Below the pieces are notes generated by a model that saw only the letters and a program-made list of their open reading frames with translations, did not search any database and was not told the origin of the DNA. Both the position numbers and the translations under genes were made by a program. A stretch of 64,000 nucleotides of DNA from Cantharellus purpuraceus (Eukaryota > Basidiomycota > Agaricomycetes > Cantharellales > Hydnaceae): assembly GCA_025174535.1 (NCBI GenBank), contig JALBUN010000012.1, positions 1 through 64,000 of the forward strand, given 5' to 3'. Of the stretch, positions 8,761 to 32,585 are shown one piece after another; position 1 is the stretch's first letter, and every line of letters starts with the position of its first letter.

Positions 8761-9159
8761 CCAAGAAGTTGATGGGGCAAATCTTAGTCGATATATGAAC
8801 TACTGTAATAGACAGAGAGTAGCCTGTATAAGTATGTGGAGATTGATGAAACTAAAAGCAATAAGACAATAAGATGGATATGGAGTACAACATGGAAAGG
8901 GGTTTGGAGTTTGGACCCAAGTCTGAACTAAACTAAGCAATATAAAAGAAGAAGGTTTGTTGTAACCCATAAGAAGAAACTACTTATAAGGAGAATAATA
9001 ATGGAGTTCAGGGTTAATGGAGGTGGATTTGACAGAGAATGGAGATCTGGAGATGGAGATCCAGAGATTGGACTTGGTGTTACAGGATGTAACAGTACTC
9101 CTCCTCTGCATACTGTGTCTCCAAGGCCCCAATATCTGCCAGCCTCTGTGTGTTATGAC

Positions 9160-9461
9160 TGTGAGGGCGACGCTGATGACGAGGCCACAACAACAAGATA
9201 CTCAATAAGTGAGAGCCGATAAGAAATAATGCCAGCTGGTACAGCGGATATCCTCAGAGATCAAGCTGAGGGGATCACACTGCACCAAGGCAAGTCTTTA
9301 TACTAAATGATGGAGACGGATAGGAGAACCAAGATAGGGGAGGAAAGATAGGGGAAGTGATAGGGGCAATGAAATAGGGGAGACGCACCCTGACAGGCTG
9401 CGCTGATAGGGGTGTCAAGAGAAATACTAAAAATAGAATATGACTTATTTGAACCCTGACA
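9160..9461 (-). mobile_element. Solo LTR-G1 with TSD ATGAC
   Basis: This is the reverse-complement of the Gypsy-1 LTR: it starts tgtgagggcg and ends aaccctgaca. It is flanked by ATGAC (9155-9159 and 9462-9466); removing it restores tgttatgactatattc of LTR-G2. It is 302 bp against 360-361 bp for the Gypsy-1 LTRs because it has only one copy of the gaggatatccgctgtacca segment, so the Gypsy-1 lineage has gained a 59-bp internal duplication or this copy has lost it. Confidence 0.87.
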
Positions 9462-9756
9462 ATGACTATATTCATTAACGTCCAGATCCCCATCCGATCC
9501 ACTCAGATCCCCGTGCATATGAAATCTATACTCCATTTGGAAACCGCCGTCTCCATCTCCCTGTCCGATCGTCACCGCCAATTCCACCCATCCGTCTCCG
9601 GTTCCAATTGATGCATCAGCATCACCATAGGAACCCAGACATCCGTCCCCATCGGACTCAGACATACTCATGCAAGGCCGTTGGCCTCAGAGACCCATCA
9701 CCAGAGTAATTATTATTAGATTTCAAAATATGTATTTAAGTTGCCCAACTGGGGAC

Positions 9757-9939
9757 TGTAGATGGAGCTTTGAGACCTTGAAGAAGGCCTTTACTTCCAC
9801 TCTGATACTGACTCATTGGGTTCCAGACGTTCCTATCCTATTAGAGACCAATGCCTCCGACTATGCACTTGCCGCGATCCTGTCCATCATCTCTCCAGAC
9901 AACGGACAAGTCCATCCGATAGCTTTTCACTCGCGTACA
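9757..9939 (+). pseudogene. Captured Gypsy-2 pol (RT/RNase H) fragment inside an LTR
   Basis: The + strand encodes SFETLKKAFTSTLILTHWVP and SDYALAAILSI, matching Gypsy-2 pol around 29040-29225 (minus strand). It sits between LTR segments ending ggggact and starting gtattagtgaggg. In intact LTR-G2 those are separated by about 107 bp holding the predicted transcription start. So about 180 bp of pol has replaced the R-start region of this LTR. Confidence 0.8.
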
Positions 9940-10082
9940 GTATTAGTGAGGGCGCAGCACATAAGCTGAAGCCAAGTCCATCCCGACCATGACATGCTCC
10001 GACTCCAACCCAACCTCCAACCCAAACTCTGACCCAAACTCCAACCCAAACTCCAACCCCCAATCGGACCTAGTGTGTAACA

Positions 10083-10584
10083 CTGTGGAAGCTGAGCATT
10101 GGAGGCAATTGGAGGTGGTGGCCCAGGGGGTTGGCAAGCAAGTAAGAGCATACATGCATACTGGGTCCATTGGGGGGTCAAATCTTCAGGGTTGGAGTTG
10201 GAGTCAGAGGTGTGGTGGTGGTTGGAACAGACTTGGCTTCAGCTTATGTGCTGCACCCTCACTAATACCTGTGTCCAAGATTTTGGAGATGGAATATGAC
10301 TTAAGTAGGTAGGATCAGACTTAGGACCTAGACATGATTTGATATTTGAACTGGGGAATGAAAGTCCCCAGTAGTATGACTTAAATACATATGTGAAACC
10401 TAAGAATAATTACTCCAGTGATGGATCTCTAAGGCCAATGGCCTTATGTGAGTATGTCCAAGTCCAACAGGGGCAGATATCTAGGTGTTAAGTACTGACA
10501 TGGAATTCAAAGGAGTAACTGGAGTTTGGATGCTAGACATGTATGGGGAGGGACTTTACTGTTCTAGTTCAACCAGAGACAGAG
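10083..10584. repeat. Decayed LTR-G2-family fragment
   Basis: Positions 10160-10500 follow the antisense-orientation LTR-G2 order (cagacttggcttcagcttatg, gattttggagatgga, gatatttgaactgggg, a block like gtatgtccaagtccaac) with many CpG-to-TpG/CpA changes and indels. The ends are not resolvable. Positions 10503-10584 match 8505-8590. No coding content was recognised. Confidence 0.5.
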
Positions 10585-10960
10585 TGTTATGCACTAGGTC
10601 CGATTGGGGGTTGGAGATTGTGTTGGAGATTGGGTTGGAGTGACAGTTGGAGTCAGAGCAGAGTCCCCAGTCGGGCAACTTGAATACATATTTGAAATCT
10701 AATAATAATTACTCCAGTGATGGGTCTCTGAGGCCAACAGCCTTATGTGGATATGTCCAAGTCCAATGGGGATGGATGTCTGTTCCTATGGTGATGCTGA
10801 TGCATCAATCGGAACCGGAGGCAGATGAGTGAAATCAGCAGTGACAATCAGACAGATAAATGGAGATGTGATGGTTTCCAAATGGAGTATAGATTTCATG
10901 TGCACAGGGATCTGAGTGGATCCGATGGGGATCTGGGTGTTAATGAATATAGTCATAACA
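10585..10960 (-). mobile_element. Decayed LTR-G2 (3' LTR of a relic Gypsy-2-family element)
   Basis: This copy starts tgttatgcactaggtccg and ends gaatatagtcataaca, and is followed by the same internal sequence (gtatctctccatttaagg) that follows the Gypsy-2 3' LTR at 14512. Compared with 14103-14511, almost every difference is CpG changed to TpG or CpA. It retains the roughly 100-bp segment (10768-10880) deleted from Gypsy-2's own LTRs. No partner LTR or TSD is left, because Copia-1 interrupts the relic at 12135. Confidence 0.75.
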
Positions 10961-11101
10961 GTATCTCTCCATTTAAGGCTGAGCCCCTGAGGCCTCATGT
11001 CTGTGGACTGAATAGGTGAGATGGTTGGGCACAGTCAGAGTTATACTGGGGGTCTGGAGACATATAAAAGGAGGGGCATGTTTGAGGTCTTATCCTCAAC
11101 A

Positions 11102-12135
11102 ATGTCGTACCCCTTAGCAAACATGAGTGTGGCTGAGCTTGAGCAGCTGCTCCTGGCCTGATGGAAGGAGGAGGAGGAGGAGCAGAGATGGAAGGAGGAG
11201 GCTGAGGTGGAATGGAGACGGAAGGAGGAGGAGGAGGAGGAGTGGAGATGGAAGGAGGAGGAGGAGTGGAGACAGAAGGAGGGGGCTGAGGTGGAATGGA
11301 GACGGAAGGAGGAGCAGCAGCAGCAGAGATGGAAGGAGGAGGAGGAGCAGAGACAGAAGGAGGACGAGCATAGACAGAAGGAGGAGGAGCAGAGACAGAA
11401 GGAGGAGGAGCAGAGACAGAAGGAGGAGGAGCAGAGACAGAAGGAGGAGGAGCAGAGACAGGAGGAGGAGGAGCAGAGACAGGAGGAGGAGGAGCAGAGA
11501 CAGAAGGAGGAGGAGGAGCGGAGATGGAAGGAGGAGGTGGAGGAGCGGAGATGGAAGGAGGAGGTGGAGGCAGAACAGAGATGGAAGGAGGAAGAAGCAA
11601 AGGCTGAGCGAGCATGCAGGGTCAAGGAGCTGGTGGCCACGATGGAGGCCACGAGGCTGAAGGAAGTGGAAGAGCAGGTGCATGAGCTAGAAGCCACCAT
11701 GGAGGTAGAGGAGGAGGTGACCGGGGCAGGGGTGACTAGTCACCCAGGGAGTCCGAGTGTGCCAATACGGATGAGGTCGCCATTATCTCAATCACATGGA
11801 TGGAGTCAACCTGTCTGACAACTGTCCCTCCAGTAGACTTGCCGTTGCGTCTGCAACCATGGCTGTTATTTGTGGTGGGTGTGGCTGAAGAGGATGATGC
11901 GGCAGAGGCAGAGAGGGTGGAAGTGGAGGCAGATCCTGATGCCAACATGGAGCTTGATGCAAATGCAGAGCCTGAGGCGGGTGTGGATGTTGGGATGGAT
12001 ATGGAGCTGGATCCTACCTCAAATTGTTACAAGGGGGTGGCTTGGGTAGCTGCAGTTGAAGCTCGCAAAAGGGCGGAGCTATATGCTGCTACTACCAAGA
12101 AGAACCTTGAGGTCACGGTCTTTTCAAGTGCTGAT
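11102..12135 (+). pseudogene. Relic of the antisense coiled-coil gene of a Gypsy-2-family element
   Basis: It parallels the Gypsy-2 antisense gene at 14653: TATA at about 11064, ATG at 11102, MSxxLANMSVAELEQLLLA, a Glu/Arg/Lys-rich coiled coil (units of about seven residues such as EEEQRQK at 11380-11520), then MEVEEEVTGAG, a linker and an acidic Asp/Glu/Ala stretch, and finally RKRAELYAATTKKNLEV. It is broken by TGA at 11159-11161 where the intact copy has CGA, by a frameshift near 11760-11800, and by truncation at the Copia-1 border. The Cys cluster is missing. Unlike the interrupted Gypsy-2 copy, it shows VEEEVTGAG uninterrupted and so documents the LTR-Z empty site. Confidence 0.75.
11380..11520. 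repeat. 21-bp coding tandem repeat, Glu/Gln/Arg/Lys-rich
   Basis: A unit close to gagcagagacagaaggagga is repeated about seven times head to tail, inside the relic antisense gene. It is purine-rich on the + strand. The corresponding region of the younger copy (14740-14860) uses cggaacggagacggaag, so the caga units here are CpG-decayed versions. Confidence 0.75.
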
Positions 12136-12290
12136 TGTAGAGCTCAAAAGCGAAGATGTGTGTTATCAGATAAGCCAGGCTACAAACCCAGCAAAAAACA
12201 AAATTGTAACACATAAAATACTCATATCTCCTCATAGAATAATCCAATTTATACCAATCTTTCTAGGGACCTTCAGTGCATTCCAACACA
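12136..12290 (-). mobile_element. Copia-1 3' LTR
   Basis: On the minus strand it reads TGTGTTGGAATGC ... CTCTACA, 155 bp, matching 37640-37795. It is immediately preceded (minus sense) by a purine tract (attgaggggg, 12291-12300) that fits a polypurine tract. The left flank is the relic antisense gene; the expected TSD (ctgat) is not found at the other end, so one end has been rearranged. Confidence 0.8.
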
Positions 12291-12295
12291 CCCCC

Positions 12296-14097
12296 TCAAT
12301 GAAGTGTCCCTTCAATCCTACCAATCCCTAATCCATCTCTGAACTTCACATGCTTGGCACCCACCAGACTCTTGGTTAGCACATCAGCTACCATCTCATT
12401 AGTCGGCACAAACTGGAGTTTCAGCAATCTCCTTTCCACCTTTTTCCTCAACCAGTGATACATAACATCAATGTCCTTCATCCTGGAGTGGTGTTCAGGG
12501 TTCTTGGATACCCCAATGGCAGGTTGGCTGTCACAATAAAGCATGACTGGAGGAAGGTGGTAACCAAGTTCAGTTAGCAACTGTTTCAACCACATGGCTT
12601 CATGTCCTGCAAAGTTAGCTGACATGTATTCAGCATCAGATGAGGATGTTGCCACTGTGGGTTGCCGTTTGCTGCTCCAACTGACTGCTGCTCCACCAAT
12701 GACAAAGGCATATCCAGTTGTTGACTGTCTCCTGTCCTCATCTCCTGCATAGTTGGCATTGCAGTAGACCTGGAGCATTGCCTGGGAGCCAGAGTCTGGA
12801 GGTCCATACGTCATCCCCAGTTCAGCAGTCCCTTTGAGATATTTGAGCACATGCTGAACCACCTTTCAATAACCCAAACCAGGATTTGAGTTGAATTGGC
12901 AAAGTTCACCAACTGCATGTGCAATGTCTGGTCTGGTTCCAATTGCAAGGTAATTCAGGCTCCCAATGGTGGCAAGGTATGGAACACCTCTCATGGCCTC
13001 AATGTCCTCCTTTGACTGTGGACAGAGATCCTTGGAGAGATGACAGCCTGGATCAAGAGGAGTCGACACTGGCTTGCAATTCTCCATGTTGAATCACTTC
13101 AAAACATCCAGTGCATACTTGTGCTGATTAATGTGCAATGTCCTCTTTCTCCTGTCTCTGTGGATTTCCAGACCGACAATGTACCTGGCAGGTCCCATGT
13201 CCTTCATTTTGAAGTGTTGCAACAGCTCAAGTTTTACTTTGTCAAGATGGGTGCAACTGTTGCATGCTATAAGCTGATCATCAACATAGACAGGGACGTA
13301 GACTTTGACGGGTCCTTGGATGTAGAGGTAAAGGAGGCTGTCCACCTTGGATCTGGTGAATCCCATGTCATGGAAAGCTTGGTCCAGTTTGGCATGCCAC
13401 CTGTTTCACCCTTGCCTGGTTCCATAGATGGCCTTGTTTAGTCTCCCAACCTTGTCTCCTTGCCTGTGTCCATCTGGAAGTTCCATGTAGACCTCCTCTT
13501 CAATATTGCCATTCAAATAGGCAGATTTGAAATCAACTTGGTCCAATTCCAGATCCTCAAGGGCGGCAAGGGCTAGGAGCACTCTGAGCATGTTGAATCT
13601 CACAACAGGGGCAAATGTTTCCATGCCTTCTGTGTGTATCCTTTGCAACCACTCTAGATCTGAAGCGCTCAATGGATCCATCAGGGTTCTTCTTAAGTTT
13701 GAATACCCATTTGGAGCCCACAGCCTTCTTGCCTGCAGGGAGATTCACCACTGTCCAAACATTGTTGTCCATAAGTGACTGATATTCTTCATTGCAGGAC
13801 TCTCTCCACCATGGTGCATCAACTCTAGACATGGCCTCCTGATAAGTGGATGGTTCAGGGAGGTCAGGAGCATTGCTGAGGTTGACAAGTTCCTCAAGTA
13901 GATGTTAGACAGATGGTATGGCAGATTCAGCCTGTTCCACCCCCTCATTCTGGACATCATCCACCCCCTCAGTTGGATCATCTCTCCTGTGACTCAGGTG
14001 GAGGATTCCTGTACTGGGCAGCATTTGGGACAAGCCACCATGGTTGGGGGGGGATGCACATGCATGCTGAATGCCTTGGAGGAGGGTCAGGTGGTAG
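12296..14097 (-). pseudogene. Copia-1 pol, reverse transcriptase and RNase H part
   Basis: The minus strand encodes RT, starting near 13832 (AVGSKWVFKLKKNPDGSIER; DLELDQVDFKSAYLNG; catalytic YVPVYVDDQLIACNS near 13270). RNase H follows (NANYAGDEDRRQSTTGYAF, SSSDAEYMSANFAGHEAMWL, MLYCDSQPAIGVSKNPEHHS, ADVLTKSL), and the protein ends at 12296. The YVDD motif is intact. At least four frame breaks separate the open segments (near 13600, 13410, 13090 and 12865), so it cannot make a full product. Positions 13850-14097 hold the linker between integrase and RT. Confidence 0.85.
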
Positions 14098-14102: not shown

Positions 14103-14511
14103 TGTTACGCACTAGGTCCGATTGGGGTCGGAGATTGGGTCGGAGTCGGAGCACGTCGTGGGGTCAGAACGGACTTGGCTTCAGCTTATGTGCTGCGCCC
14201 TCACTAATACCGGTGTCCGAGATTTTGGAGATGGAGTATGACTTACAGAGTTAGGATCGGACTTAGGAGCTAGGTGTGATTCAATATTCGAACTGGGGAA
14301 TGGAGTCCCCAGTCGGCAACTTAAATACATATTTGAAATCTAATAATAATTACTCCGGTGATGGGTCTCCGAGGCCGACGGCCTTACATGAGTATGTCCA
14401 AGTCCAACGGGGACGGATGTCCGGGTTCCCAAATGGAGTATAGATTTCATATGCGTGGGGATCTGAGGGGATCGGACGGGGATCTGGGCGTTAATGAATA
14501 TAGTCATAACA
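14103..14511 (-). mobile_element. Gypsy-2 3' LTR
   Basis: The + strand reads tgttacgcactagg ... tagtcataaca; sense is on the minus strand. Next to it, 14512-14530 (gtatctctccatttaagg) is in minus sense a purine-rich tract fitting the polypurine primer. It is rich in TCGGA/TCCGA words. Confidence 0.85.
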
Positions 14512-14613
14512 GTATCTCTCCATTTAAGGCCGAGCCCCTGAGGCCTCATGTCCATGGATTGAATAGGTGAGACGATTGGGTGTGGTCGGAGTTATACTGG
14601 GGGTCTGGAGACA

Positions 14614-14620
14614 TATAAAA
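14614..14620 (+). promoter_or_regulatory. TATA box of the Gypsy-2 antisense gene
   Basis: TATAAAA lies inside the element, about 100 bp past the 3' LTR, 39 bp before the ATG at 14653. The same box and spacing occur in the relic copy (about 11064 against ATG 11102), so it is conserved between copies. A start about 30 bp downstream leaves a leader of only a few bases before the first ATG; the second ATG (14674) could be used instead. Confidence 0.6.
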
Positions 14621-15016
14621 GGAGGGGCATGATTGAGGTCTTATCCTCAACGATGTCAAACCCTTTGGCAAGCATGAGCGTGGCCGAGCTGGAGCAGTTG
14701 CTCTTGGCCCGACGGAAGGAAGAGGAAGAGGTGCAGAAACGGAAAGAGGAGGAGGAAGCAGAATGGAGATGGAAGGAGGAGGAGGAGGCAGAACGGAAAC
14801 GGAAGGAGGAGGAGGAGGCGGAACGGAGACGGAAGGAGGAGGAGGAGGAACAACGGAAAGAAGCGGTGAAAACGGAATGGAGAAGGAAAGAGGAGGAAGC
14901 GAAGGCAGAGAGGGCCTGCAAGGTGAAGGAACTTGCGGCAGCGATGGAGGCCGCGAGACTGAAGGAAGTGGAGGAGCAGGCGCATGAGTTAGAGGCGGCC
15001 ATGGAGGTAGAGGAGG

Positions 15017-16446
15017 TGTATGGGAACCACCTTTTCCCTATCAAATTCCATTTATGCAGCACCAATGTGCTATTCTTTGCTTTTCCATTCCTAAATATCC
15101 GCATATATTTGATGCTTGTACCTGGAATGGACTTATTCAAATATTCTCTATTTTTCCATATTTTTTTGGGAATATTCCATGCAGAACTCAGCTCAGAATC
15201 ATTTATTTCTGCTGTGCTACAGTTGTGGACCCATAGGCACCCACAAACCTTCGCGCAGCCGGCTCTCCCCTTTTGGACCAGGCATTTGGCCTCAATTCAA
15301 GCTCAGATGTCTCTGATCAATAAATATTCTGTAACTTAACAACCACAGCCTCTCAGGGCACTATTTTCCATGGAGATCATCACCTGAGATGTGGCTATCC
15401 ATGGCTGTCCAAACCAGTGCAGAAAACAGGGTGGACACCCTTCTTTTGCCTGATCAGTGCCTAGTTCATGGATCAGATCAGCTGATGGGTGATCAAATCA
15501 GGTGATTGCCTTGGAATATTCTACCCTTTCCATAACATTCTAGCTGTTTCCCTCTATTATTAGATAGAACTTTCCAGAACCATTATTCAGCTCCTGATCA
15601 GTGTTAGTGCTGTGACCAGATCCTGTGATTGGCTGGGAATATTCTACCCCTTTCTTCCACCTTCCACAACCTTCCAGTAGTTTCCATCTATTAATAGGTA
15701 GAATATTCCAGAACCATTAGTCAGCCCCTGTAAATACAATATATAAGGAGGCCATTCTGCCTCTGAAGAAGAACATATCATCATATTCTACCCATCTTCT
15801 GCACACCAGTGTGACTAGAGTGACATACAGTGTCATCCTCTATCTCAGTAACTGTTGATTACCAGTTCAAGGATCTTTTACAGTTGTGTAACTGTACTTG
15901 ATTGCACTCGAAGTAGTGATATTCCTGCTTTGGGCGTGAGTGTAGTATCTGCCTCACGTGACTACGAATCTACAGGGTGAGATTGTCTGTCGATAGTCCT
16001 GCCATTAGTGCTCTTGTTTAAGTTACTAGTGTGTACTGCCTTTGCAGAGCATTAGAAGTTTGAACTCGTGTGAAGCAGTTGCTAGACTACTTCACACATT
16101 GCTGTTACCCGCTTCTGAGTGCCACTGGTTGGACGGTTTGATTCATCCACCTACTTCCTTTAGCCTCTAAGTGCATTCCCCCCTTTTTGGAATATCTGGA
16201 CCCCTAAGCGTCCGTGAACTCTAGACTCTGGAAGTCTTATTCATTTCTTGCTGCTAAGAAACGTATTACCTTTCTGCGTATAGTCTGCATTGACCAATAC
16301 AAAGGATTGTAACCAAAGTACAAACGTTAAATTGTTTCTGGAGTTGTGCTGCAGCAGGGTTTGATATTCTTCTCAGCTGTTCATTCACGGAATTGTGGTG
16401 ATTTAGAGTTTGCCCTAACACCATAATTTTGCAGGTTCCAAAACAG
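15017..16446 (+). mobile_element. Solo LTR-Z, copy 1, TSD GGAGG
   Basis: 1430 bp, starting tgtatgggaaccacc and ending ggttccaaaaca, with GGAGG at 15012-15016 and 16447-16451. Removing it restores the reading gtagaggaggaggtgacc seen in the relic copy at 11705-11725. It has a TATA-like tatataagg near 15741. No ORF of note. The family is not assignable because no internal region is present. Confidence 0.88.
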
Positions 16447-17022
16447 GAGGAGGTGACCGGGGCAGGGAAGACCAGCCACCCAGGAAGTCCGAGCGTGCCC
16501 ATATGGCCAGGGACCCCGGAAGTCGCCATCATCTCCATTACACGGATGGAGGCGACTCGTTCAAGGATGGTCACTGCGGAGCACTCGCCATTACGTCCGC
16601 AGGCACGGCCCTTATTTGAGTCGGGGGCAGCTGAGGAAGACGATGCGGTGGAGGCGGAGAGGGCGGAGGTGGAAGCGGATCCCGATGCCAATATGGAGCT
16701 CGACGCAAATGCGGAGCCCGACGCGAGCGTGGATGTTGGGATGGATGCGGAGCCGGATCCTACTTTGAATTCCTACGAGGAGATGGCTTGGGTAGCTGCG
16801 GTCGAGGCTCGCAAAAGAGCAGAGCTCTATGCTGCTACCACCAAGAAGAACCTCGACGTCGCGATCTTTTCACTGAAGGCCTACCCGAGTGCTGATACGG
16901 AGAAGCGGGAGGCAGACCGGAGGGTCATATGGTGCAAGGTGGAGAGTCGCGTGTTGGCGACCCGTAAGAAGGAGCTGCGTGTCGTGAGGTTGGCAATCCA
17001 GCTTCGCAAGCACGAGATGGAG

Positions 17023-18453
17023 TGTTTTGGAACCCGCAAAATTATGGTGTTAGGGCAAACTCTAAATCACCACAATTCCGTGAATGAACAGCTGAGAAGA
17101 ATATCAAACCCTGCTGCAGCACAACTCCAGAAACAATTTAACGTTTGTACTTTGGTTACAATCCTTTGTATTGGTCAATGCAGACTATACGCAGAAAGGT
17201 AATACGCTTCTTAGCAGCAAGAAATGAATAAGACTTCCAGAGTCTAGAGTTCACGGACGCTTAGGGGTCCAGATATTCCAAAAAGAGGGGAATGCACTTA
17301 GAGGCTAAAGGAAGTAGGTGGATGAATCCAACCGCCCAACCAGTGGCACTCAGAAGCTGGTAACAGCAATGTGTGAAGTAGTCTAGCAACTGCTTCACAC
17401 GAGTTCAAGCTTCTAATGCTCTGCAAAGGCAGTACACACTAGTAACTTAAACAAGAGCACTAATGGCAGGACTATCGACAGACAATCTCACCCTGTAGAT
17501 TCGTAGTCACGTGAGGCAGATACTACACTCACGCCCAAAGCAGGAATATCACTACTTCGAGTGCAATCAAGTACAGTTACACAACTGTAAAAGATCCTTG
17601 AACTGGTAATCAACAGTTACTGAGATAGAGGATGACACTGTATGTCACTCTAGTCACACTGGTGTGCAGAAGATGGGTAGAATATGATGATATGTTCTTC
17701 TTCAGAGGCAGAATGGCCTCCTTATATATTGTATTTACAGGGGCTGACTAATGGTTCTGGAATATTCTACCTATTAATAGATGGAAACTACTGGAAGGTT
17801 GTGGAAGGTGGAAGAAAGGGGTAGAATATTCCCAGCCAATCACAGGATCTGGTCACAGCACTAACACTGATCAGGAGCTGAATAATGGTTCTGGAAAGTT
17901 CTATCTAATAATAGAGGGAAACAGCTAGAATGTTATGGAAAGGGGTAGAATATTCCAAGGCAATCACCTGATTTGATCACCCATCAGCTGATCTGATCCC
18001 TGAACTAGGCACTGATCAGGCAAAAAGAAGGGTGTCCACCCTGTTTTCTGCACTGGTTTGGACAGCCATGGATAGCCACATCTCAGGTGATGATCTCCAT
18101 GGAAAATAGTGCCCTGAGAGGCTGTGGTTGTTAAGTTACAGAATATTTATTGATCAGAGACATCTGAGCTTGAATTGAGGCCAAATGCCTGGTCCAAAAG
18201 GGGGGAGCCGGCTGTGTGAAGGTTTGTGGGTGCCTATGGGTCCACAACTGTAGCACAGCAGAAATAAATGATTCTGAGCTGAGTTCTGCATGGAATATTC
18301 CCAAAAAAAATATGGAAAATAGAGAATATTTGAATAAGTCCATTCCAGGTACAAGCATCAAATATATGCGGATATTTAGGAATGGAAAAGCAAAGAATAG
18401 CACATTGGTGCTGCATAAATGGAATTTGATAGGGAAAAGGTGGTTCCCATACA
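17023..18453 (-). mobile_element. Solo LTR-Z, copy 2, opposite orientation, TSD TGGAG
   Basis: 1431 bp, the near-identical reverse complement of 15017-16446, flanked by TGGAG at 17018-17022 and 18454-18458. The two copies differ by only a few changes (for example one T in a T-run and a t/g near 18000). Together they make a 1.43-kb inverted repeat with a spacer of about 576 bp. Confidence 0.88.
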
Positions 18454-19169
18454 TGGAGAAGGCGGCAGCAGAACAGCAGGACAAGGAGGAGGAGAGGGAA
18501 CGCTTGGAGGCCGCAGCAAGGAGGGGCGGACCACCCAAGGCTCTGGCTGCAATGGAGCCATTTGGCAGACCCAGCGTAACTTGCGACTTATGTCGTGATG
18601 CGGGTGTGGAGTGCGTGTGGCCTACCGGCCCAACTCACCGCCTTCGGTCCTGCGATCATTGTCAGGGTCGGAAAGGAGGGTGTAGGATCGATGGAAAGTT
18701 TGATCCCCAGAGTCGGAGCGTCAAGCCCCGACTAGTGGTACAGGAGGGGCAAAGAAGGAATCGGAGGGTCGTCTGACCAAAAAGAGGCAGACTGAGACGG
18801 GTGCTGTAGCAGCCGGGGGTAGCGGCGTCAGATCGGAAGGGGCAACAACCAGTGCAGGTATGGGGCGCGTCTCTGCGCCCAATAGCACTGTGGGCCAGCT
18901 TATCAGGCTGGTTAACCTGCAGTCGGAGCACCTTTGGCGGACAGAGGGGTTGTTAGTAGACTTGGTGAGGACGATGAAACAGAAGGAGGTTCTGGAGGGT
19001 CGTTGGACAGCCAAGTTACGTCAGTTGTGGAAGTTCATGGCCCCGTTGGATGAGGATTCAGACATGGGAGATGAGAAGGATTGGGTGTCGGATGTAGAGA
19101 GTGATGAGGAGTTGGAGACAGAGCCTGAGGTAGATAAGGAAAAGGGGAAAAGGAAACGCGATGTATAAG

Positions 19170-19337
19170 ATAAGGATGAAAATGATTATAAATTTCAGAA
19201 CGGAGAAAGAATAAGGCGGAGTGATATTCCTTCGGAGTTTTTTTTTTTTTTTTTTTTTTTTTGAGGAGCTGGTAATTTCCCTTGACTTGTAATAGAGTGG
19301 TGATGCGAAATAATAGAATTAGCATTAGTAATTGAAC
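19170..19337. other. Gap between convergent Gypsy-2 genes, with T-run
   Basis: Between the antisense gene stop (19168) and the pol stop (19338, minus). It contains an uninterrupted run of about 23 T (19240-19262). It may hold the 3' ends of both transcripts. Confidence 0.4.
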
Positions 19338-20129
19338 TTAAAGATTCATAAGAGGGCCAGGTTTGTCTGGATAAGCGGAGTGAAAATTGGAGATGGATTC
19401 GGATGCGTGATTGAGTTCAGATGCAGAGATCCATGAAGACTCTTCATCAGTGCCTTCGTATCCAGTCCATTTGACTAAGTACTGGAGCTTGCACTTGTAT
19501 TGACAGTCGATCTTTGAGTCCAGGATCTCCAAGATCTCATATTCATTGTCTCCTTCAATGATAATTGGGGGAGGTGGGGGTTGCATGCACCCGGAGATCT
19601 CATTTGTAGTAGCGGGTTCAAGCATTGATATATGGAAGACCGGATGAACTGCTCAGAAGTGGTCAGGGAGGCGGAGGGTGAAAGACCTGCTGCCCGCGCA
19701 AGCAATGACCTCATAAGGACCTAAGTATTTCTCGGAGAGTTTCTTTGATGGACGGGTGGTCCGGAAGTGTTTGGCCTTAACGAATACTTTGTCTCCAATT
19801 TGCAGGTCCGGAGCCGGAATGCGGCGTCGGTCTGCGGAGACTTGATATTGTTTCTGAGCATCGGAGATGGTTTCTCAGAGATGTTGGTGTAGTTGATCGA
19901 GGTTGGTTACAAATTGGCGGGCTTTGGTGGAGGCAAGTTCCTTCTCGGGGTGGACGGAGATGTTTGGATGGTAGCCTTTATTAGCAAAGAATGGAGAGAT
20001 GCTGGTAGTTGCATTTGGAGCGTTGTTGTAGGCAAACTCTGCGATCGGAAGTAGATCAGCCCAGTTGTCTTGTTGACAGTTACAATAGATTCGGAGATAT
20101 TGTTCCAGGGACTGATTCATTCGTTCTGT
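19338..20129 (-). pseudogene. Gypsy-2 pol C-terminus: integrase end and chromodomain
   Basis: This continues the integrase interrupted at 27961-27964. It reads TERMNQSLEQYLRIY (with the E of the DDE triad), NWADLLPIAEFAYNNAPNAT, the SH3-like region (PAPDLQIGDKVFVKAKHFRT, KKLSEKYLGPYEVI), then a chromodomain (YEILEILDSKIDCQYKCKLQ, YLVKWTGYEGTDEESSW), ending at 19338. Two in-frame TGA codons stand where CGA (Arg) is expected (near 19873 and 19650), consistent with CpG deamination. A chromodomain places the element among chromoviruses, whose integrases can read histone marks. Confidence 0.85.
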
Positions 20130-20335
20130 TGATGAGCCAGGACGCATCGAGGACGCATATCGAACTACTCTGACAGTCCAACTCCGCCAGCGTCTTTTCA
20201 TATCAACTTTTAAATAGCGCTGCAACTCCCTATCCACCTCAGTCTCTAATTCGAGCCATCGATTGTCACTCGTGTTTCATCGCCATCGATCATTATCAGC
20301 CTTCTATTCACACCGATCCTTTCATCATCATTCAC

Positions 20336-20770
20336 ATGGTTTCCCATTCTATTCCCCTCTCCAACATCACTTCTAATAATACGTCACACTGGTCTCTGGA
20401 CACAGAGGACTATCAAAAATATGCCGAGCTCCATGGGCATGTTAAGCCACCTCCACGTGTCAAAATACTTCCAAAACTCTTTCAACGTCCAAGATCCCCA
20501 CCATGTCTCTCTTATGCCATTGGCGATCCCATATTCTTTCACAATTCCGTTGAACCATATACATTCCTCGACATTTCACCTCTATATCATAACACGGATA
20601 GAAGAGTCGAACGTGAGGTAGAATTTCAGTCGCCATTGCCGACCTATCCTCCCACTTCAATCCGACTCAGGTTACATCGTGTCAGGCAAAGGGACCGAAT
20701 ACTCTTGGAACGGGATACCATATGGAGACGGATCACTAAGACAATAAGGAGTATTTGTTGTGGATGCTGA
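20336..20770 (+). CDS. ORF inside LTR-X (U3), related to Gypsy-1 ORF3
   Basis: 144 codons from the ATG at 20336, preceded by a TATA-like ttttaaata at about 20207-20216. Motif order: W-S-x-D (about residue 19), PPPxV (38-42), YxIGxPxF (59-66), N-x(3)-PYxF (69-76), IxLxL near 108, WRRI near 130, and a Cys-rich end. It has no signal peptide or membrane segment. The second copy (33352) has the same length; of about 11 coding differences 9 change the amino acid, so it is not under selection since these copies separated. The function is unknown; an accessory retroelement protein is an inference. Confidence 0.6.
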   Translation: MVSHSIPLSNITSNNTSHWSLDTEDYQKYAELHGHVKPPPRVKILPKLFQRPRSPPCLSYAIGDPIFFHNSVEPYTFLDISPLYHNTDRRVEREVEFQSPLPTYPPTSIRLRLHRVRQRDRILLERDTIWRRITKTIRSICCGC

Positions 20771-21108
20771 CGGAAGTCCTCATGTGACTCAGGGTCAATT
20801 AACCTTCGGAGCCGTAGGGAAGATGGTATTGGTGGACATTTCTATTGTTCTTTTATATGACTCACCCCTGTTTCATCTTTTAATTCATTCATACACGACT
20901 TACTCATCCTTGTTCTATTTTTGGTTCTTTTTATTACTCATCACCCCTATTCTTACAAAGATTACCCCTATCTGTCGTTTCATTTCTCCATGATTACCCC
21001 CTTTAGTAGTTCAACTTCACACGCTTCGTCAGCTGGCTTGATCAGCATTTCTTGCATCATATTGCATCATTTGCTCCTCATATTGTGTCAGTGTGCCCTG
21101 GGGATTTG

Positions 21109-21116
21109 TATATAAA
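21109..21116 (+). promoter_or_regulatory. TATA box of LTR-X
   Basis: TATATAAA, also present in copy 2 (34124-34130). It lies downstream of the ORF, so the ORF falls in the U3 part and the element's own transcript would begin near 21140. Confidence 0.55.
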
Positions 21117-21422
21117 GGGCGCTAGTTTTTGCCTTTGGAATCAATCAACAAGTTTTCAGCCAACGCTCTAAAGTCAAAGTCCACGCTCTAAGTATACACT
21201 CTACATCACAATCCATCATCTCTACACTGAGGTAAAACACCTTGGTTCAACGATCAGATTTCCCTCCGCCACCGAGAGGTTGATTCTCCTGAAACCAGCT
21301 TTCACGTACCTCCCAACCGGGCTTCGCATTGTCATCCAGTCACAGAGCATGATCAGCCATCGGGACCGACCTTTGCTCCCATCCTCATCCAACCACAGAG
21401 CACTATCCCACTTCCCTGTTAC

Positions 21423-21783
21423 TGTCAGGGTTCAAATAAGTCATATTCTATTTTTAGTATTTTCTTCTGACACCCCTATCAGCGCAGCCTGTCAGGGTGC
21501 GTCTCGCCTATTTCATTGCCCCTATCACTTCCCCTATCTTTCCTCCCCTATCTTGGTTCTCCTATCCGCCTCCATCATTTAGTATAAAGACTCGCCTTGG
21601 TGCAGTGTGATCCCTCAGCTTGATCTCTGAGGATATCCGCTGTACCAGGTAAGTCCCATGTATTTATCAGAAACAGCTGTATAGACTGAGGATATCCGCT
21701 GTACCAGCTGGCATTATTTCTTATCAGCTCTCACTTATTGAGTATCTTGTTGTTGTGGCCTCGCCATCAGCGCCGACCTCACA
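21423..21783 (+). mobile_element. Gypsy-1 5' LTR
   Basis: 361 bp. TATAAA lies at 21583-21588 and the predicted RNA start at about 21617. The start region forms a perfect 6-bp inverted repeat, cctcag..ctgagg (21613-21632), around the primer sequence. A duplicated gaggatatccgctgtacca block (21628 and about 21687) distinguishes it from the solo LTR at 9160. Confidence 0.9.
21583..21626 (+). promoter_or_regulatory. TATA box and predicted start/self-primer of Gypsy-1
   Basis: TATAAA at 21583 and, 34 bp on, agcttgatct at 21617-21626. This 10-mer is the exact reverse complement of agatcaagct at 21786-21795, just inside the LTR. The position fits a Tf1-like mechanism in which the 5' end of the mRNA primes its own reverse transcription. 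Confidence 0.7.
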
Positions 21784-21785
21784 GA

Positions 21786-21795
21786 AGATCAAGCT
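21786..21795 (+). other. Predicted primer binding site of Gypsy-1 (self-priming)
   Basis: agatcaagct starts 2 nt after the LTR end (21783), the standard PBS position. It does not look like a tRNA 3' end complement (no leading TGG) but pairs with the predicted RNA 5' end. Confidence 0.7.
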
Positions 21796-21851
21796 CATAA
21801 GACGACCCCACACCTCATAACACTTTCCCTATTAACTACTTCACCGATACC

Positions 21852-22994
21852 ATGACCGATCAGCTCCCTGAAGCCTATTGGGACACTCTAGGTGAAAGTG
21901 GTGGCTTTCTGCGAGCGTTGTTCAACACCCAGGCGCAGCAGCTCCAGCAGCTGCAACTCCAGAACCAGCACCTCCAAAGCCAGTTCGCCAATGTCCAGAA
22001 CAACCTAGCAGATGCTGCCACTGCTGCCGCCATTGCTGCAGCACAGACCATCTCTCAGACCACCTCATTTCCCACACCTTCTCCTACATCGTCATCCGTT
22101 CGCCCAATAAGGGCAGCCGAACCAGCCAAATTCAATGGAGATCGTGCAGAGACGGAAGGTTTCATTCGCTCTATCAGGCTTGCCATTGCAGTCCAGCCTA
22201 CATCTTTCCCAGATGAGCGGACCAAGATCCTCTATGCCCTCTCTTTTATGACAGGAGGTTCTGCTGAAGTATGGGCGCACAATGAGACACAGGCAGTCAT
22301 TGACAGGACCTCACCACTCTCCACCTTGGAGGAATTCATTAAGCAAGTGGAGAACGCTTTTGGGGACCCTGACCGCTCTCGAACAGCACGAACAAAGCTA
22401 CACGATCTTAGGATGACACCTGGCATGTCAGCGGATGAATACACGGCACAGTTTGAGATACTAGCAGGAAGGACTGGGTTTAATGATGCAGCACTGGAAG
22501 ATGCCTATGCCCGAGGGCTCCCTGCAATGATTCTTGACAAGATCCATGCACAGCCATCCCTCCCGTCCGATCTCAAGGCATGGAAGGAAGCGGCCTGTCA
22601 AATTGACCGCAACCACCGTCGTCTTCTAGAAGTGAGACGTGCTCAGACTTCCATCACTCCTGCCCGCTCTACCCCATCCCGCCCTCACAGCACTCCGGTC
22701 ATCTCTGTACCAACTACCTTGGCAACCTCTAATGGTGCTGCACCTATGGATATTGACTCCAACCGCCATCGCATTGAGACTCGGACATGCTACAACTGTG
22801 GAAAGCGTGGCCATATATCCCCAGCATGCCCTGAACCACGCAAGGAACGGATCCGAGCTGATCTCACACAAACAGCAATTGCAGGCATGATATCAGAGTC
22901 AGTAGCAGCTGCACTGAAGGCCAAGGAAGAAGCGCAGAAGGCAGTAATTCCAAAGCAAGAGGAGAAGCAGGATTTTCAGGCCAGTCAGCAGTGA
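21852..22994 (+). CDS. Gypsy-1 Gag with CCHC zinc knuckle
   Basis: 380 residues from the ATG at 21852. A Gln-rich coiled coil lies at residues 25-60 (QQLQQLQLQNQHLQ). A Ty3-type capsid follows (PAKFNGDRAETEGFIRSI, ALSFMTGGSAEVWAHN, FGDPDRSRTARTKLHDLRM, YTAQFEILAGRTGF). A CX2CX4HX4C zinc knuckle (CYNCGKRGHISPAC) is near residue 315 and a Glu/Lys tail closes the protein. The frame is intact. It assembles the virus-like particle and packages RNA. Pol overlaps the Gag stop in the -1 frame. Confidence 0.9.
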   Translation: MTDQLPEAYWDTLGESGGFLRALFNTQAQQLQQLQLQNQHLQSQFANVQNNLADAATAAAIAAAQTISQTTSFPTPSPTSSSVRPIRAAEPAKFNGDRAETEGFIRSIRLAIAVQPTSFPDERTKILYALSFMTGGSAEVWAHNETQAVIDRTSPLSTLEEFIKQVENAFGDPDRSRTARTKLHDLRMTPGMSADEYTAQFEILAGRTGFNDAALEDAYARGLPAMILDKIHAQPSLPSDLKAWKEAACQIDRNHRRLLEVRRAQTSITPARSTPSRPHSTPVISVPTTLATSNGAAPMDIDSNRHRIETRTCYNCGKRGHISPACPEPRKERIRADLTQTAIAGMISESVAAALKAKEEAQKAVIPKQEEKQDFQASQQ

Positions 22995-25900
22995 AGAGCA
23001 TGCCCTGCCTGACAAACCGGTTTTCAGTTCTTGAATCATGTACTGTAGGGCTCACAAGCGATATGTTACACGCACACTCCCTTGTCCATCAGACTGAAAC
23101 CAAAACAGCCATGCCTGAAACCCCTTCTCAACTTCCAGCTAAACATGATGACCCTCCTCATCTCTACCTTCGATCTGCAGACATCCGTCGATGTACAAGA
23201 ATTCCCATGAAAATCCATTCGGTAGACACTGGATACCCTCTAGCCGTGGATGCACTCCTCGATAGTGGTGCTACAGGAATGTTCATTGATGCAGAATATG
23301 TCAAAGCAGAGAAACTTCGAACACGACCTCTACCACGTGCCATACCTGTTTATAACATTGATGGGACCCCAAATGAAGCAGGTTCAATCAAGGAAGAAGT
23401 CGATCTCATCTGCACATATGGGACCCATACCGAACGTGCCACATTTTCAGTCACAAGCCTGGGAACCTTTGGCATAATTGTTGGGCACACCTGGCTTGTG
23501 AGGCACAACCCAGAGGTAGACTGGCGTACAGGAAAGGTACAGATGACTCGCTGCCCTGATTCATGTGGAGAAGTACCAGAACACAAAGAGCATTCGCTTG
23601 GTACAACTCCTTCAAATGGCAAGAACTCACACGGGCAACCCCAATACGAGGGAGACCGAACATTTGTTATCTTTGTAGAAGACTTGGAGAATATCTATGC
23701 TGGTTCAACAGTTTCTCAACAGCTCGCACAGAAGGCTGCAGAATCTACTCCAGTCAAAACCTTTGAGGAGATTGTCCCAAAGGCGTACTGGGGATTTAAG
23801 GATGTTTTTGCAAAGGAGTCCTTTGACCAACTTCCACCTCAAAACTGTGGGACCACGCTATTGAACTCACTCCAGGAGCGCAACCCTTCAGCACAAAGGT
23901 CTATCCAATGTCCCCAAATGAGCAGAAGGAGTTGGACGCATTCCTTGAGGAGAACCTACGGAATCATCGATACGCCCTTCCAAGTCACCCATGGCATCCC
24001 CTGTCTTTTTTTGTGAAGAAGAAGGACGGTAATCTTCGTTTTGTGCAAGACTACCGCAAGCTGAATGATATCACAATCAAGAACGCCTACCCACTACCCC
24101 TGGTACCAGACATCATGAATAAAATTGCCGCAGCCAATGCCAAGTACTTTACCAAGCTTGACATCCGATGGGGATATAACAATGTGCGTATTAAAGAGGG
24201 CGATGAGTGGAAGGCAGCCTTTCGAACCAATCGTGGTCTATTTGAACCCCTGGTCATGTTCTTTGGTCTCACAAACAGCCCAGCAACCTTTCAGACGATG
24301 ATGAATGGCATTTTCAAGGAGCTCATTGATGATGGCACTATGGTAGTGTTCATGGACTACATCCTCATTTTCACTGAATCCCTAGAACAACACCACACGA
24401 TCGAGCAATCTGTCCTTGAAATTCTTCAGGCCAACCACCTGTACCTCAAACCAGAGAAATGCCTTTTCTCGCAACAGAAGGTAGATTATCTTGGATTGAT
24501 TCTCTCACAGGGACAGGTAGCTATGGACCCAGTTAAGGTGGCCGGAGTCAGGGACTGGCCCACACCACGCAATGTGACAGAAGTCAAATCCTTCCTGGGT
24601 TTCATCAATTTCTATCGTCGCTTCATTGAGGACTTCTCACATATCGCAAAGCCTCTGAATCTGTTAACAAAGGCAGATACACAGTGGTCTTGGATACCTG
24701 ATGGCCCAGAACAAGAAGCCTTTGATAAACTCAAGCAGCTTGTCACGTCAACTCCAATCCTTGTCCTCCCAGATCAAACCAAGCATTTTCGACTAGAGAC
24801 AGATGCTTCAGCATATGCAACAGGTGCTGTTCTATCTCAACTCTGTGACGATGAGAAATGGAGGCCGGTAGGTTTTGTATCCAAGAGCCTTTCAGATGCA
24901 GAGCGCAACTATGCCATCCATGATAAGGAATTGCTCTCAGTCATCCGTGGACTAGAAGAATGGCGCCACATCTTTGAAGGGACCAAATACAAGATTGAAA
25001 TCCTTAACGATCATCAAAACCTCACATATTTCTGTACAGCTCAGAATCTCAATCGTCGACAAGCTCGCTGGTCACTATACCTTCTCGCTTTGATTTTGAA
25101 CTGATCCATCGTCCTGGACGACATTCAGCCAAACCTGATGCCCTCTCACGACGTGTAGATCATAAGCGGGGGAGGAAGATAACCAGAACCAGGTTCTTCT
25201 TGGCCCTGAGCTGTTCCACATCGATGCGACATCCACCTATCCAGGGCCAGAAGCTCAAATGATCACAGGAGAAGGAGACATATTCCTGGAACGTGTGCGG
25301 AACTGCACCAACAGAGATGAAAAGGTTGTAAAGGCTCTTAAGGAACTTGGTCCCTCTCGGAATTTACGAGGACAGGAATGGACCGAGGAGAATGGACTTG
25401 TCCTCTATCGTGGCAAGGTATATGTCCCTCTTGACCCAAAATTGCGCCATGACATTGTAAGGGCACACCACGATACTCACATTACAGGTCACCCTGGTCG
25501 CTGGAGAACAACAGAACTTGTATCCCGCAGCTACTGGTGGCCTGGATTTGGACGATACATTGCCAAATATGTCAAGGGATGTGACCTCTGCAATCGGACA
25601 AAAACTTTCCCTGCTCCTCCTATGGGTAAACTCCTGCCTAATCGTGTCCCAGATCGGAGGTGGCAAGTGATATCTGTTGACCTTATTGTAGAACTACCCA
25701 TCAGCCATGGCTATGATGCACTCCTTGTCGTTGTGGACCGTCTTTCCAAACGAGCACATGTTATCCCTACCACCTCTGACATCAACTCCATAGGAGTTGC
25801 ACGACTTTTCCGAGACCATGTGTGGAAACACCATGGCCTTCCTGAGGAGATCATCAGTGACCGTGGCACCCAGTTTGTCTCTCAATTTATGCGCGAGCTC

Positions 25901-26884
25901 AATAAGCTTTTGGGGATCAAGGTTGCAGCATCCACAGCATATCATCCACAAACCGATGGTCAGACGGAAAGGGTAAATCAAGAAATTGAACAATACTTGA
26001 GGCTTTTCGTCAATCAGCGCCAGGATGACTGGATTGAGTGGGTTCCTCTTGCAGAATTCACATACAACAACCGCATCCACTCCTCCACGCAATCAACCCC
26101 CTTCATGCTTGATACAGGCCAACACCCAAGGCTTGGGCTAGAGCCAATCCGAGAGACACGACTTGAAGCACTGGAAGAATTCACTGAGCGTATGGAGACA
26201 GCCACCACTGAGGCTCGCTCTGCCCTGGAAAAGGCAGCAGATGATATGGCACGATTCTATGATGCCCATCGGCAAGCAGCCCCAGTATACAAACTTGGTG
26301 ACAAGGTCTGGCTCAATGCACAAAATATCACCACCACCCGCCCAACCAAGAAACTTGATCACAAATGGTTAGGACCGTATGTGATTAATAAGGTGGTCTC
26401 ACGAAATGCCTATGGCCTACGACTTCCCCCAATCTTTGGCCGCACTCATCCAGTGTTCTCTGTTGTCTTACTCCGCCCTTATGAAAAGGATCCCATCCCT
26501 GAACGCCAGTCATCTCCTCCACCACCTCCAGTCATTCAAGATGGAGTACAGGAATACGTAGTTGAGAAGATCCTTGACAGCAGAGTTTTCCGAGGAAGAC
26601 TGGAATATCTGGTGCGCTGGAAGGGCTATGGAGCTGCTGACGACCTCTTGATCCCAGCTAAGGATGCCAGTGGGGCTAGAAGGCGCATTGCAGACTTCCA
26701 TCAGGAAAATCCTGAAGCCCCAAGGCGTATTTCGTCAGCCACCTATGCGGCTCTTCCCTTCAGACGCTTTGAGAACTTCACAGAACCTCCCAAACAGGTC
26801 CTCTTTGATTGGACAGCTGGCAGGAACCCAACACGTGGTACTGGACACATTTCAGAGCCGCAGAATAGGCACAATGAAGCTTAG
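22991..26884 (+). pseudogene. Gypsy-1 Pol (PR-RT-RNase H-IN-chromodomain), three frameshifts and altered RT motif
   Basis: Protease (AVDALLDSGATGMFID, near 23250); RT (LRFVQDYRKLNDITIKNAYP, FGLTNSPATFQTMMNG); RNase H (LETDASAYATGAVLSQL, SDAERNYAIHDKELLSVI); integrase with HHCC (HHDTHITGHPGRWR ... CDLCNRTK) and the DDE residues (SVDLIVEL, ISDRGTQFVSQF, HPQTDGQTERVNQEIEQYLR); and a chromodomain (EYVVEKILDSRVFRGRLEYL, VRWKGYG). Frames change near 23845 (A-run), 25080 (T-run) and 25157 (G-run), each explained by one missing base. The RT catalytic box reads VFMDYILIF, so the second Asp of xxDD is Tyr. It begins in the -1 frame at the Gag stop. Confidence 0.88.
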
Positions 26885-26923
26885 CGCTCACCAAATTCAT
26901 CCATGCCGAAATTCCACTAACTG

Positions 26924-26930
26924 TATATAA
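26924..26930 (+). promoter_or_regulatory. Internal TATA box before Gypsy-1 ORF3
   Basis: TATATAA lies 61 bp before the ORF3 start codon and 40 bp after the Pol stop. It suggests ORF3 is made from its own subgenomic transcript rather than by readthrough of Pol. Confidence 0.5.
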
Positions 26931-26990
26931 GCCAGTGAATCCACTTCCCCTTCCTCAGTAAAACCATCATCGTTCACTACCCAACCCACC

Positions 26991-27428
26991 ATGCCTTACC
27001 AGTCTGAATCCACCACTCTACGCTCACTCCGTTCCTACCCCTCAATCACTTGGTCAGTTGACTCAAGGGATACTGCACGTGCTGTAGAGGATTATAACCT
27101 CCCATCTCCACCTCCACAAGTTCATTTCCCCTTCTGGCATCGTAATCCATCCAGACGCCAGACATACTACATCGGGTACCCTCTATTCATCGGCAACTAT
27201 GACATACCATATGCCTTCCAAGGGCTCGCTGGTAAAGTCACCTATGAGGGAGGGGAGATGATACTTGGGGCAGTTTTCAGCACTAACAATCCCATATCCC
27301 CTGGAGAGTTCACCATCCCACTTTACCCCAAGGCAGAGAAGAGTCACCATCAACACTCGTCATGGGCTCTACTTTGGCAGAGAGTGAGAAGGGACCTTGC
27401 AGAGTGCTTCAGGGTGTGTCTCTCTTGA
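26991..27428 (+). CDS. Gypsy-1 ORF3, uncharacterised accessory protein downstream of Pol
   Basis: 145 residues from the ATG at 26991 to 27428, intact although Pol is broken. Motif order: W-S-x-D (about residue 21), PPPxV (39-43), FWH, YYIGYPLFIGN and IPYAF (60-75), IPL near 110, then LLWQRVRRDL and a Cys near the end. The spacing closely follows the LTR-X ORF (144 residues), suggesting homology. There is no signal peptide, membrane segment or zinc motif, so it does not look like a retroviral envelope. It lies 107 bp after Pol and 53 bp before the 3' LTR. Function unknown. Confidence 0.65.
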   Translation: MPYQSESTTLRSLRSYPSITWSVDSRDTARAVEDYNLPSPPPQVHFPFWHRNPSRRQTYYIGYPLFIGNYDIPYAFQGLAGKVTYEGGEMILGAVFSTNNPISPGEFTIPLYPKAEKSHHQHSSWALLWQRVRRDLAECFRVCLS

Positions 27429-27468
27429 GATGGATGGGACGATAGTGCATATCGAGACGACATGCATT

Positions 27469-27481
27469 AAGAGGGAGGTGA
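27469..27481 (+). other. Polypurine tract of Gypsy-1
   Basis: aagagggaggtga abuts the 3' LTR at 27482, the standard position for plus-strand priming. Confidence 0.7.
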
Positions 27482-27841
27482 TGTCAGGGTTCAAATAAGT
27501 CATATTCTATTTTTAGTATTTTCTTCTGACACCCCTATCAGCGCAGCCTGTCAGGGTGCGCCTCCCTATTTCATTGCCCCTATCACTTCCCTATCTTTCC
27601 TCCCCTATCTTGGTTCTCCTATCCGTCTCCATCATTTAGTATAAAGACTCGCCTTTGTGCAGTGTGATCCCCTCAGCTTGATCTCTGAGGATATCCGCTG
27701 TACCAGGTAAGTCCCATGTATTTATCAGAAACAGCTGTATAGACTGAGGATATCCGCTGTACCAGCTGGCATTATTTCTTATCAGCTCTCACTTATTGAG
27801 TATCTTGTTGTTGTGGCCTCGTCATCAGCGTCGCCCTCACA
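27482..27841 (+). mobile_element. Gypsy-1 3' LTR
   Basis: 360 bp, nearly identical to the 5' LTR. Several of the few differences are one-base length changes in C-runs (near 27565, 27590 and 27670), the rest mostly C/T changes. Confidence 0.9.
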
Positions 27842-27964
27842 GTTACGTACCCCTCGCCCTGATTGATCTTTGGAGTGCTGAACAACTGTGTTACACACCG
27901 TCTGCTTGCTAGGACCGTTGCGCACAGGCTTATAGGATCTATTCCTTAAGCGAACCGACACCAT

Positions 27965-31260: not shown

Positions 31261-31415
31261 TGCTTGAATAGCGGTATCGGGAATGGAGTCGGAGTGGACG
31301 AGGAGGGTAAGGGAGTCGGAGTGGGAAAGAGCGGATGCGTTCAGGCGGACCTCGTTTGCCGTACGGGGAGTACCAACGCAGCCCTCAGCCCATACGGAGG
31401 CTATAGGACTGCTTA

Positions 31416-32555: not shown

Positions 32556-32573
32556 TGGTAGGAGTGAGTATGG

Positions 32574-32585
32574 CAGTTCGAATAT
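32574..32585 (-). other. Predicted primer binding site of Gypsy-2 (self-priming)
   Basis: On the minus strand atattcgaactg begins 2 nt after the 5' LTR. It is the exact reverse complement of 12 nt inside that LTR (minus-sense cagttcgaatat, 32780 down to 32769), which lies about 32 nt after a TATA-like tatttaa (32806-32812 on the other strand). Confidence 0.7.

Follow-up and report, generated by a model that had tools for sequence, protein, structure and literature searches.

The long terminal repeat (LTR) retrotransposon Gypsy-2 lies in a 64,000-base window of the Cantharellus purpuraceus genome (contig 12, bases 1-64000; the genome comprises 40.15 Mb in 50 contigs) and carries a gene oriented opposite to gag-pol, in the interval between pol and the 3′ LTR. 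Comparison of copies of this gene across the genome showed that its protein product is under purifying selection in propagating elements and that this selection is strongest from a block of six cysteines to the C-terminal helix. In the same test the end of pol gave a stronger signal and the LTR gave none, which leads us to conclude that the antisense protein is needed during propagation of the element, less strictly than pol.

Purifying selection acts on the antisense protein of propagating elements

The antisense arrangement is repeated across the element family. We searched the genome with an 86-residue query that contains the cysteine block and with a chromodomain query; these gave 549 first-look candidates and 774 candidates, respectively, and the 150 best of each were scored, which makes the linkage fractions that follow lower bounds. 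The scored gene places are 78-100% identical to the query. For at least 70 of the 150, a chromodomain was listed within 3 kb, on the opposite strand in every case (70/70) and with starts 859-945 bp apart in 63 of the 70 pairs. Counted from the other side, a gene place lies within 3 kb of at least 69 of the 150 listed chromodomains, and 52 further gene places recovered with a second query pair with at least 22 of the 150 chromodomains, again always on the opposite strand (22/22). Twenty ten-kb regions picked for long open frames all contain LTR-region matches upstream of the gene, with other sequence between in two of them (L027 and L036), and 19 of the 20 contain a convergent pol end downstream. 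This genome contains intact copies, open from ATG to stop codon (L016 and L020 are examples), and neither the window nor 50 loci contained a six-cysteine open reading frame (ORF) outside the antisense-gene family. The 150 scored places among 549 candidates, together with the frame-specific selection described below, argue that the gene is not a product of chance.

Most of the differences between copies (L001-L050, gene region) fall at CpG-prone sites, a pattern that points to methylation of cytosines or to CpG-directed mutation acting on the repeats of this fungus. These sites behave neutrally; their variants found in three or more copies comprise 158 nonsynonymous, 88 synonymous and 1 stop change, and their singletons 9, 5 and 1, respectively. 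Because copies differ mostly at such neutral sites, the selection test was restricted to sites that lie in no CpG in any copy, across 45 copies and the 433 codons that follow the coil. Singletons were taken as mostly post-insertion mutations and variants in at least three copies as mostly inherited from source elements. A place on contig 22 that duplicates the window locus was left out of the gene statistics and kept in the pol and LTR controls.

Singletons at the retained sites divided into 74 nonsynonymous (one of them a stop) and 50 synonymous changes, compared with 16 and 49 among variants present in at least three copies (odds ratio 4.5, p = 4.05e-6). These shared variants numbered 12, 6 and 47 at codon positions 1, 2 and 3. 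The purifying selection among copies that the initial annotation had proposed to look for was thus found. One minus-strand frame among the other five leaned the same way, though more weakly (odds ratio 2.5, p = 0.003). This is expected, since the real frame shares its third positions; the remaining four pointed in the opposite direction. The end of pol, our positive control (29 rows), gave nonsynonymous:synonymous ratios of 36:18 for singletons and 0:23 for shared variants (p = 1.5e-8), and the LTR, the negative control (35 rows), gave no signal in six frames (p 0.46 to 1). The result was stable at sharing thresholds of 2, 3, 4, 6 and 8, and 25 copies that had not been picked for openness reproduced it (singletons 56:39 vs shared 11:32, p = 4.1e-4).

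Within the protein, the stretch from the cysteine block through the C-terminal helix, the borders of which were set after viewing the protein, gave 21:20 for singletons and 1:16 for shared variants (p = 0.001); the middle part was looser (41:24 vs 10:26). The cysteine block alone (4:6 vs 0:3) has too few sites for power. All six codons specify cysteine in each of the 45 rows (270/270), a count that also has little power because cysteine changes need the rarer non-CpG mutations and the query contained the block. Judged from sequence, the better evidence for conservation of the cysteines is a homologue designated P0003, a 182-residue piece from a 1244-base Joint Genome Institute (JGI) metagenome contig that an alignment query recovered with E = 1.3e-34. 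P0003 is 45% identical over 160 residues, and its six cysteines and their spacing are identical. It was reached by the alignment query only, single-copy protein queries giving no match; no family nearer to it was found among the 150 scored genome places (40-47% identity), and the viral contigs searched held no relative. Selection, as raised earlier for the cysteine residues, is shown for the region that contains them, and P0003 retains all six, but the cysteines taken by themselves give little power.

These findings bear on two explanations in which the protein would have no role in the element. An antisense RNA could matter alone, for instance through pairing with the genomic RNA, and its ORF could be incidental; the 3′ end of the sense transcript has its complement in the gene, and roles for antisense RNA in plant elements are proposed in passages of PMC7264820. 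Frame-specific selection at the protein level, which includes the 25 copies not picked for openness, and conservation of P0003 as a protein at 45% identity disfavor this explanation, and we hold it to be extremely improbable. The gene could also be a captured host gene that travels as a passenger, with selection mirroring its host function, and passages of PMC7264820 describe how retroelements can transduce host genes. However, selection is visible between element lineages, the gene recurs behind many chromodomains, and Pfam gave no host family over cutoff for the protein, which make such an origin very improbable.

Open frames in old copies were rejected as proof of selection, since CpG changes rarely make stops in the real frame: it contains 1 shared stop variant vs 9-14 in the other five frames. 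Open frames that persist in old copies therefore count for less than the initial annotation had assumed. In the post-coil alignment of 46 rows, 20 of which had been selected for long open frames, in-frame stops occur in 10 rows, frameshift indels in 17 and neither in 22.

The antisense gene and its host element

Gypsy-2 occupies positions 14103-32996 on the minus strand. Its two 409-bp LTRs have TG..CA termini, are identical at 402 of 409 sites (14103-14511 vs 32588-32996) and are flanked on both sides by the target-site duplication (TSD) AGGTG. Gag, reverse transcriptase (RT), RNase H, the integrase zinc-binding domain and a chromodomain exceed the Pfam cutoff; the integrase core lies narrowly below it (28.7 vs 32.6 bits), and gag has a Pfam zinc-knuckle match. 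Because this domain set includes a chromodomain, with the order gag-RT-RNase H-integrase-chromodomain between LTRs with TSD, Gypsy-2 is a Ty3/gypsy chromovirus. Within it, a pair of nearly identical repeats (21423-21784 and 27482-27842) encloses a second repeat element, which has long plus-strand ORFs.

The antisense gene runs on the plus strand from an ATG at 14653, just inside the 3′ LTR (LTR edge, 14511), to a stop codon that ends at 19168. The ATG, stop codon, LTRs, TSD and Pfam domains all agree with the element-borne antisense gene that had been annotated there. The window copy is interrupted by two solo LTRs in opposite orientation that are 98-99% alike, and its reading frame slips once, downstream of the cysteine block. 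The features, with strands in brackets, are as follows.

14103-14511 (-): 3′ LTR of Gypsy-2; 409 bp, TG..CA, 402/409 match to the other LTR, TSD AGGTG
14512-14652 (+): leader from the LTR edge to the ATG, with TATAAAA at 14614-14620; TATA and the -3 purine kept across copies
14653-15016 (+): antisense gene, part 1: start and charged repeat, coiled-coil-like by eye; repeat number differs among copies
15017-16445 (+, sign only relative to the second solo LTR): solo LTR of another element within the gene; inverted-repeat arm, TSD GGAGG
16446-17022 (+): antisense gene, middle part, predicted helical from sequence and structure model
17023-18453 (-): second solo LTR of the same kind in reversed orientation; TSD TGGAG
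18454-19168 (+): antisense gene, last part, from sequence: cysteine block, basic stretch, C-terminal helix and acidic tail; one frame slip
18582-18683 (+): six-cysteine block C-X2-C-X6-C-X12-C-X2-C-X6-C; cysteine codons in 45/45 rows, same spacing in P0003
18776-18787 (+): basic TKKR stretch, resembling a nuclear localization signal (NLS) by eye; T-K-K unsubstituted in 45 rows
19341-19649 (-): chromodomain that ends Gypsy-2 pol, convergent with the antisense gene; PF00385, 33.3 bits vs cutoff 25.1
27785-32333 (-): remaining Gypsy-2 gag-pol with broken frames, from Pfam and ORFs: integrase, RNase H, RT and gag
32588-32996 (-): 5′ LTR of Gypsy-2, from the LTR pair comparison and TSD
10865-12126 (+): relic with the same LTR edge, TATA leader, coil and middle part, from sequence match

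Proteins of intact copies comprise, by eye, an N-terminal charged repeat, a helical middle, the six-cysteine block, a TKKRR-like stretch, a C-terminal helix and an acidic tail. Structure prediction for a 320-residue piece placed helices at residues 2-106 and 228-283, on both sides of the cysteine block (model mean predicted local distance difference test (pLDDT) score 49.7). The long coil that had been claimed for the protein corresponds to such long predicted helices and to the charged repeat, which is coiled-coil-like by eye. The number of units in this repeat, each ~30 nt or 10 residues, varies among copies (L022, L034, L035, L036 and L039). In the basic stretch, T-K-K shows no substitution in 45 rows (gaps in 1, 3 and 1 rows, respectively), and the next two positions are arginine in 34/45 and 24/45.

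A promoter-like leader is conserved among the copies, as their sequences showed. TATAAAA lies 38-39 nt upstream of the ATG in 28 of the 31 copies examined, and all 31 have a purine at -3. Between TATA and ATG, 0/47 non-CpG sites have variants in at least three copies, compared with 15/239 in the LTR, both being descriptive counts. The initial annotation had reported a TATA box in the gene and in a relic copy; the motif is indeed present at 14614-14620 and at 11063. The relic, searched over 9001-13000, has no match to the cysteine part of the gene.

The two solo LTRs, of the same family and in opposite orientation, stand merely 577 nt apart within the antisense gene. The second solo LTR of the contig 22 copy is 99.6% identical to the first of the window vs 99.2% to the stretch containing the second, which hints at exchange between the two. 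More broadly, the first part of contig 12 occurs again close to the end of contig 22: window 5200-6000 is identical at 801/801 bases to contig 22 positions 389851-390651, and window 16953-20210 is 99.2% identical over ~3.26 kb to positions 401591-404848. This probably reflects overlapping contigs that were left unmerged, another haplotype or a large duplication of recent date.

A candidate zinc-cluster regulator

Canonical Zn(2)-Cys(6) clusters follow the pattern C-X2-C-X6-C-X(variable)-C-X2-C-X6-C. The cysteine spacing given by the initial annotation is present at 18582-18683 and fits this pattern (PF00172, Zn_clus) in the window, in 45/45 rows and in P0003. Like PF00172 proteins, the antisense protein has six compatibly spaced cysteines, weak profile matches and a coil downstream of the block; unlike them, it has long coils also before the block, and the halves of the profile match it in swapped order. 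The second half of the Zn_clus profile (positions 17-32 or 20-37) aligns to the first triad in the window piece, L034, L037 and L039, and the first half (positions 1-13) to the second triad in L004 and L018, all with weak scores; the halves thus follow another order than in PF00172. By eye, the second triad has the basic motif with which canonical clusters begin, C-x-x-C-x-G-R-K. The 19 Zn_clus matches listed for the genome all exceed the Pfam cutoff, as suits a fungus. The GAL4-type label given earlier is partly right as to spacing, but membership in that family is not supported as claimed, Zn_clus being under cutoff wherever it matches and its halves matching in swapped order. Searches of solved structures by sequence returned no relative (best E 0.64 and 3.5). 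Given these weak scores, our reading is either that the block is a binuclear cluster in which the halves have changed places or that it resembles one through convergence.

Selection has preserved the protein, and its six cysteines have the spacing found in fungal gene switches, so that Gypsy-2 may encode a regulator of itself. We propose, with a probability of about 0.5, a nuclear, dimerizing zinc-cluster protein that is expressed antisense from its own promoter and regulates its own element. Antisense transcription would start from the TATA-containing leader just inside the 3′ LTR. The protein would dimerize through its helices and enter the nucleus by means of the basic stretch after the block, and the Zn2Cys6-like cluster with swapped halves would bind zinc and DNA. 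The likeliest target would be the LTR or leader of the element itself, and sense transcription would be tuned or timed, in a manner like that of the HBZ protein discussed below. We base this proposal on the frame-specific selection, the convergent arrangement, the conserved TATA motif, the six cysteines of P0003, the weak Zn_clus matches to both triads and the helices predicted on either side of the block.

By eye, the outer end of the LTR (L021-L040; window 14103-14170) contains a ~12-bp tandem repeat, variable in copy number, the unit of which includes TCGGAG or CpG-decayed forms. It is a prediction from this sequence that the repeat would form a natural array for a CGG-reading protein. A more specific proposal, that a dimeric regulator with a swapped-half Zn2Cys6-like cluster of a type missed by Zn_clus reads the CGG-bearing repeat as a functional counterpart of HBZ from human T-cell leukemia virus type 1 (HTLV-1), strikes us as doubtful. 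Most ten-kb copies have ~85 extra bases at 14424-14430 of the window LTR; the matches on either side of this point share a few bases, which looks like the loss of a short segment between small repeats.

Several observations weigh against the regulator we propose. Zn_clus scored below its 21-bit cutoff in six whole-block pieces (7.2-17.1 bits), four isolated triad pieces gave no Zn_clus match at the thresholds used, and P0003 matched no Pfam family at E 0.01, Zn_clus included. AlphaFold models are poor, with mean pLDDT 50.7 for the block and ~33 over the block in a long model. CGG plus CCG occurs 21 times in the LTR vs 15.2 expected, which is no significant enrichment (p = 0.092). The copies were fetched with a query that holds the cysteine block, which favors intact cysteines. 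Indel lengths, considered as a sign of frame keeping, are multiples of three in 10 of 30 distinct events, which is no excess, although the two commonest indels (3 and 12 nt) are in frame.

The same selection data apply to a nucleoprotein or import factor, in which the zinc block and basic stretch would bind element RNA or complementary DNA (cDNA) and the coils would bind Gag or host import factors, bringing cDNA into the nucleus. The NLS-like stretch is consistent with this role, and part of PMC7264820 treats the nuclear localization of plant antisense ORF products and nuclear entry. However, this role calls for abundant product of a separate antisense transcript, a zinc knuckle is already matched in gag, and the cysteine spacing and weak profile matches to both triads, which we counted for a DNA-reading cluster, favor the latter; we consider this role possible, though we lean against it. 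Alternatively, the coils might bind host chromatin or silencing machinery, and the protein might protect the element or, jointly with the chromodomain, steer where it integrates. The decay of CpG sites in the copies suggests that genome defense is strong, and the element does have a chromodomain, but the antisense protein resembles no silencing or chromatin family in Pfam, and we judge an anti-silencing or targeting factor improbable.

Relation to antisense genes of other retroelements

HBZ is a basic leucine zipper (bZIP) protein that is not known to have a zinc block; encoded in antisense at the 3′ LTR, it influences sense transcription. The antisense gene of Gypsy-2 resembles it as an antisense coding gene at the 3′ end whose coil-forming product is a candidate nuclear regulator. 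It differs in its candidate zinc block and in its putative promoter, which lies inside the element beside the LTR rather than within it; we draw an analogy and claim no homology. According to passages of PMC7264820 and PMC11963269, the promoter of the antisense HBZ gene of HTLV-1 is in the 3′ LTR.

The same passages describe antisense additional ORFs (aORFs) in the pol-3′ LTR interval of plant Ty3/gypsy elements, namely Grande gene23, RIRE2 and Retand (TRP28, PF04195). They report an upstream promoter and a nuclear product for gene23, predict DNA binding by the TRP28 domain, find tandem repeats in about half of the studied Retand elements and give the function of plant antisense aORFs as unknown. 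PMC8220671 speaks of antisense aORFs in general. An antisense ORF between pol and the 3′ LTR, the position that defines aORF-3R, is what the window contains. Orientation, many copies, an upstream promoter (gene23; putative here), tandem repeats (Retand) and predicted DNA binding (TRP28) are likewise shared; in contrast, the host here is a fungal chromovirus, the protein has a six-cysteine block, and the tandem repeat is in the LTR. When L004 and the window piece were scanned against Pfam with E up to 10, PF04195 was not among the matches. By analogy, the best reading of the window gene would be a fungal counterpart of the plant antisense aORFs.

Among fungi, a figure legend in PMC2864245 notes an additional ORF of unknown function in chromodomain gypsy elements. 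The gene described here is likewise an extra ORF in a chromodomain element, a likeness by description only, as that section does not treat orientation, a cysteine block or selection. The terms sought led to no passage on antisense ORFs in PMC3248453 or PMC10799480, and our searches, which covered openly licensed papers, listed no antisense ORF of a fungus that encodes a zinc cluster.

Antisense accessory genes of LTR retrotransposons have been described mainly from plants, as far as the relevant parts of PMC7264820 and PMC11963269 go. The evidence of selection on the antisense protein is the new and decisive part of our analysis. It adds a fungal case with well over a hundred copies, measurable protein-level selection and a small candidate metal-binding block, so that the role of antisense retrotransposon proteins becomes testable through one domain and one LTR. 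A swapped cluster, if true, would broaden what a binuclear zinc cluster can be.

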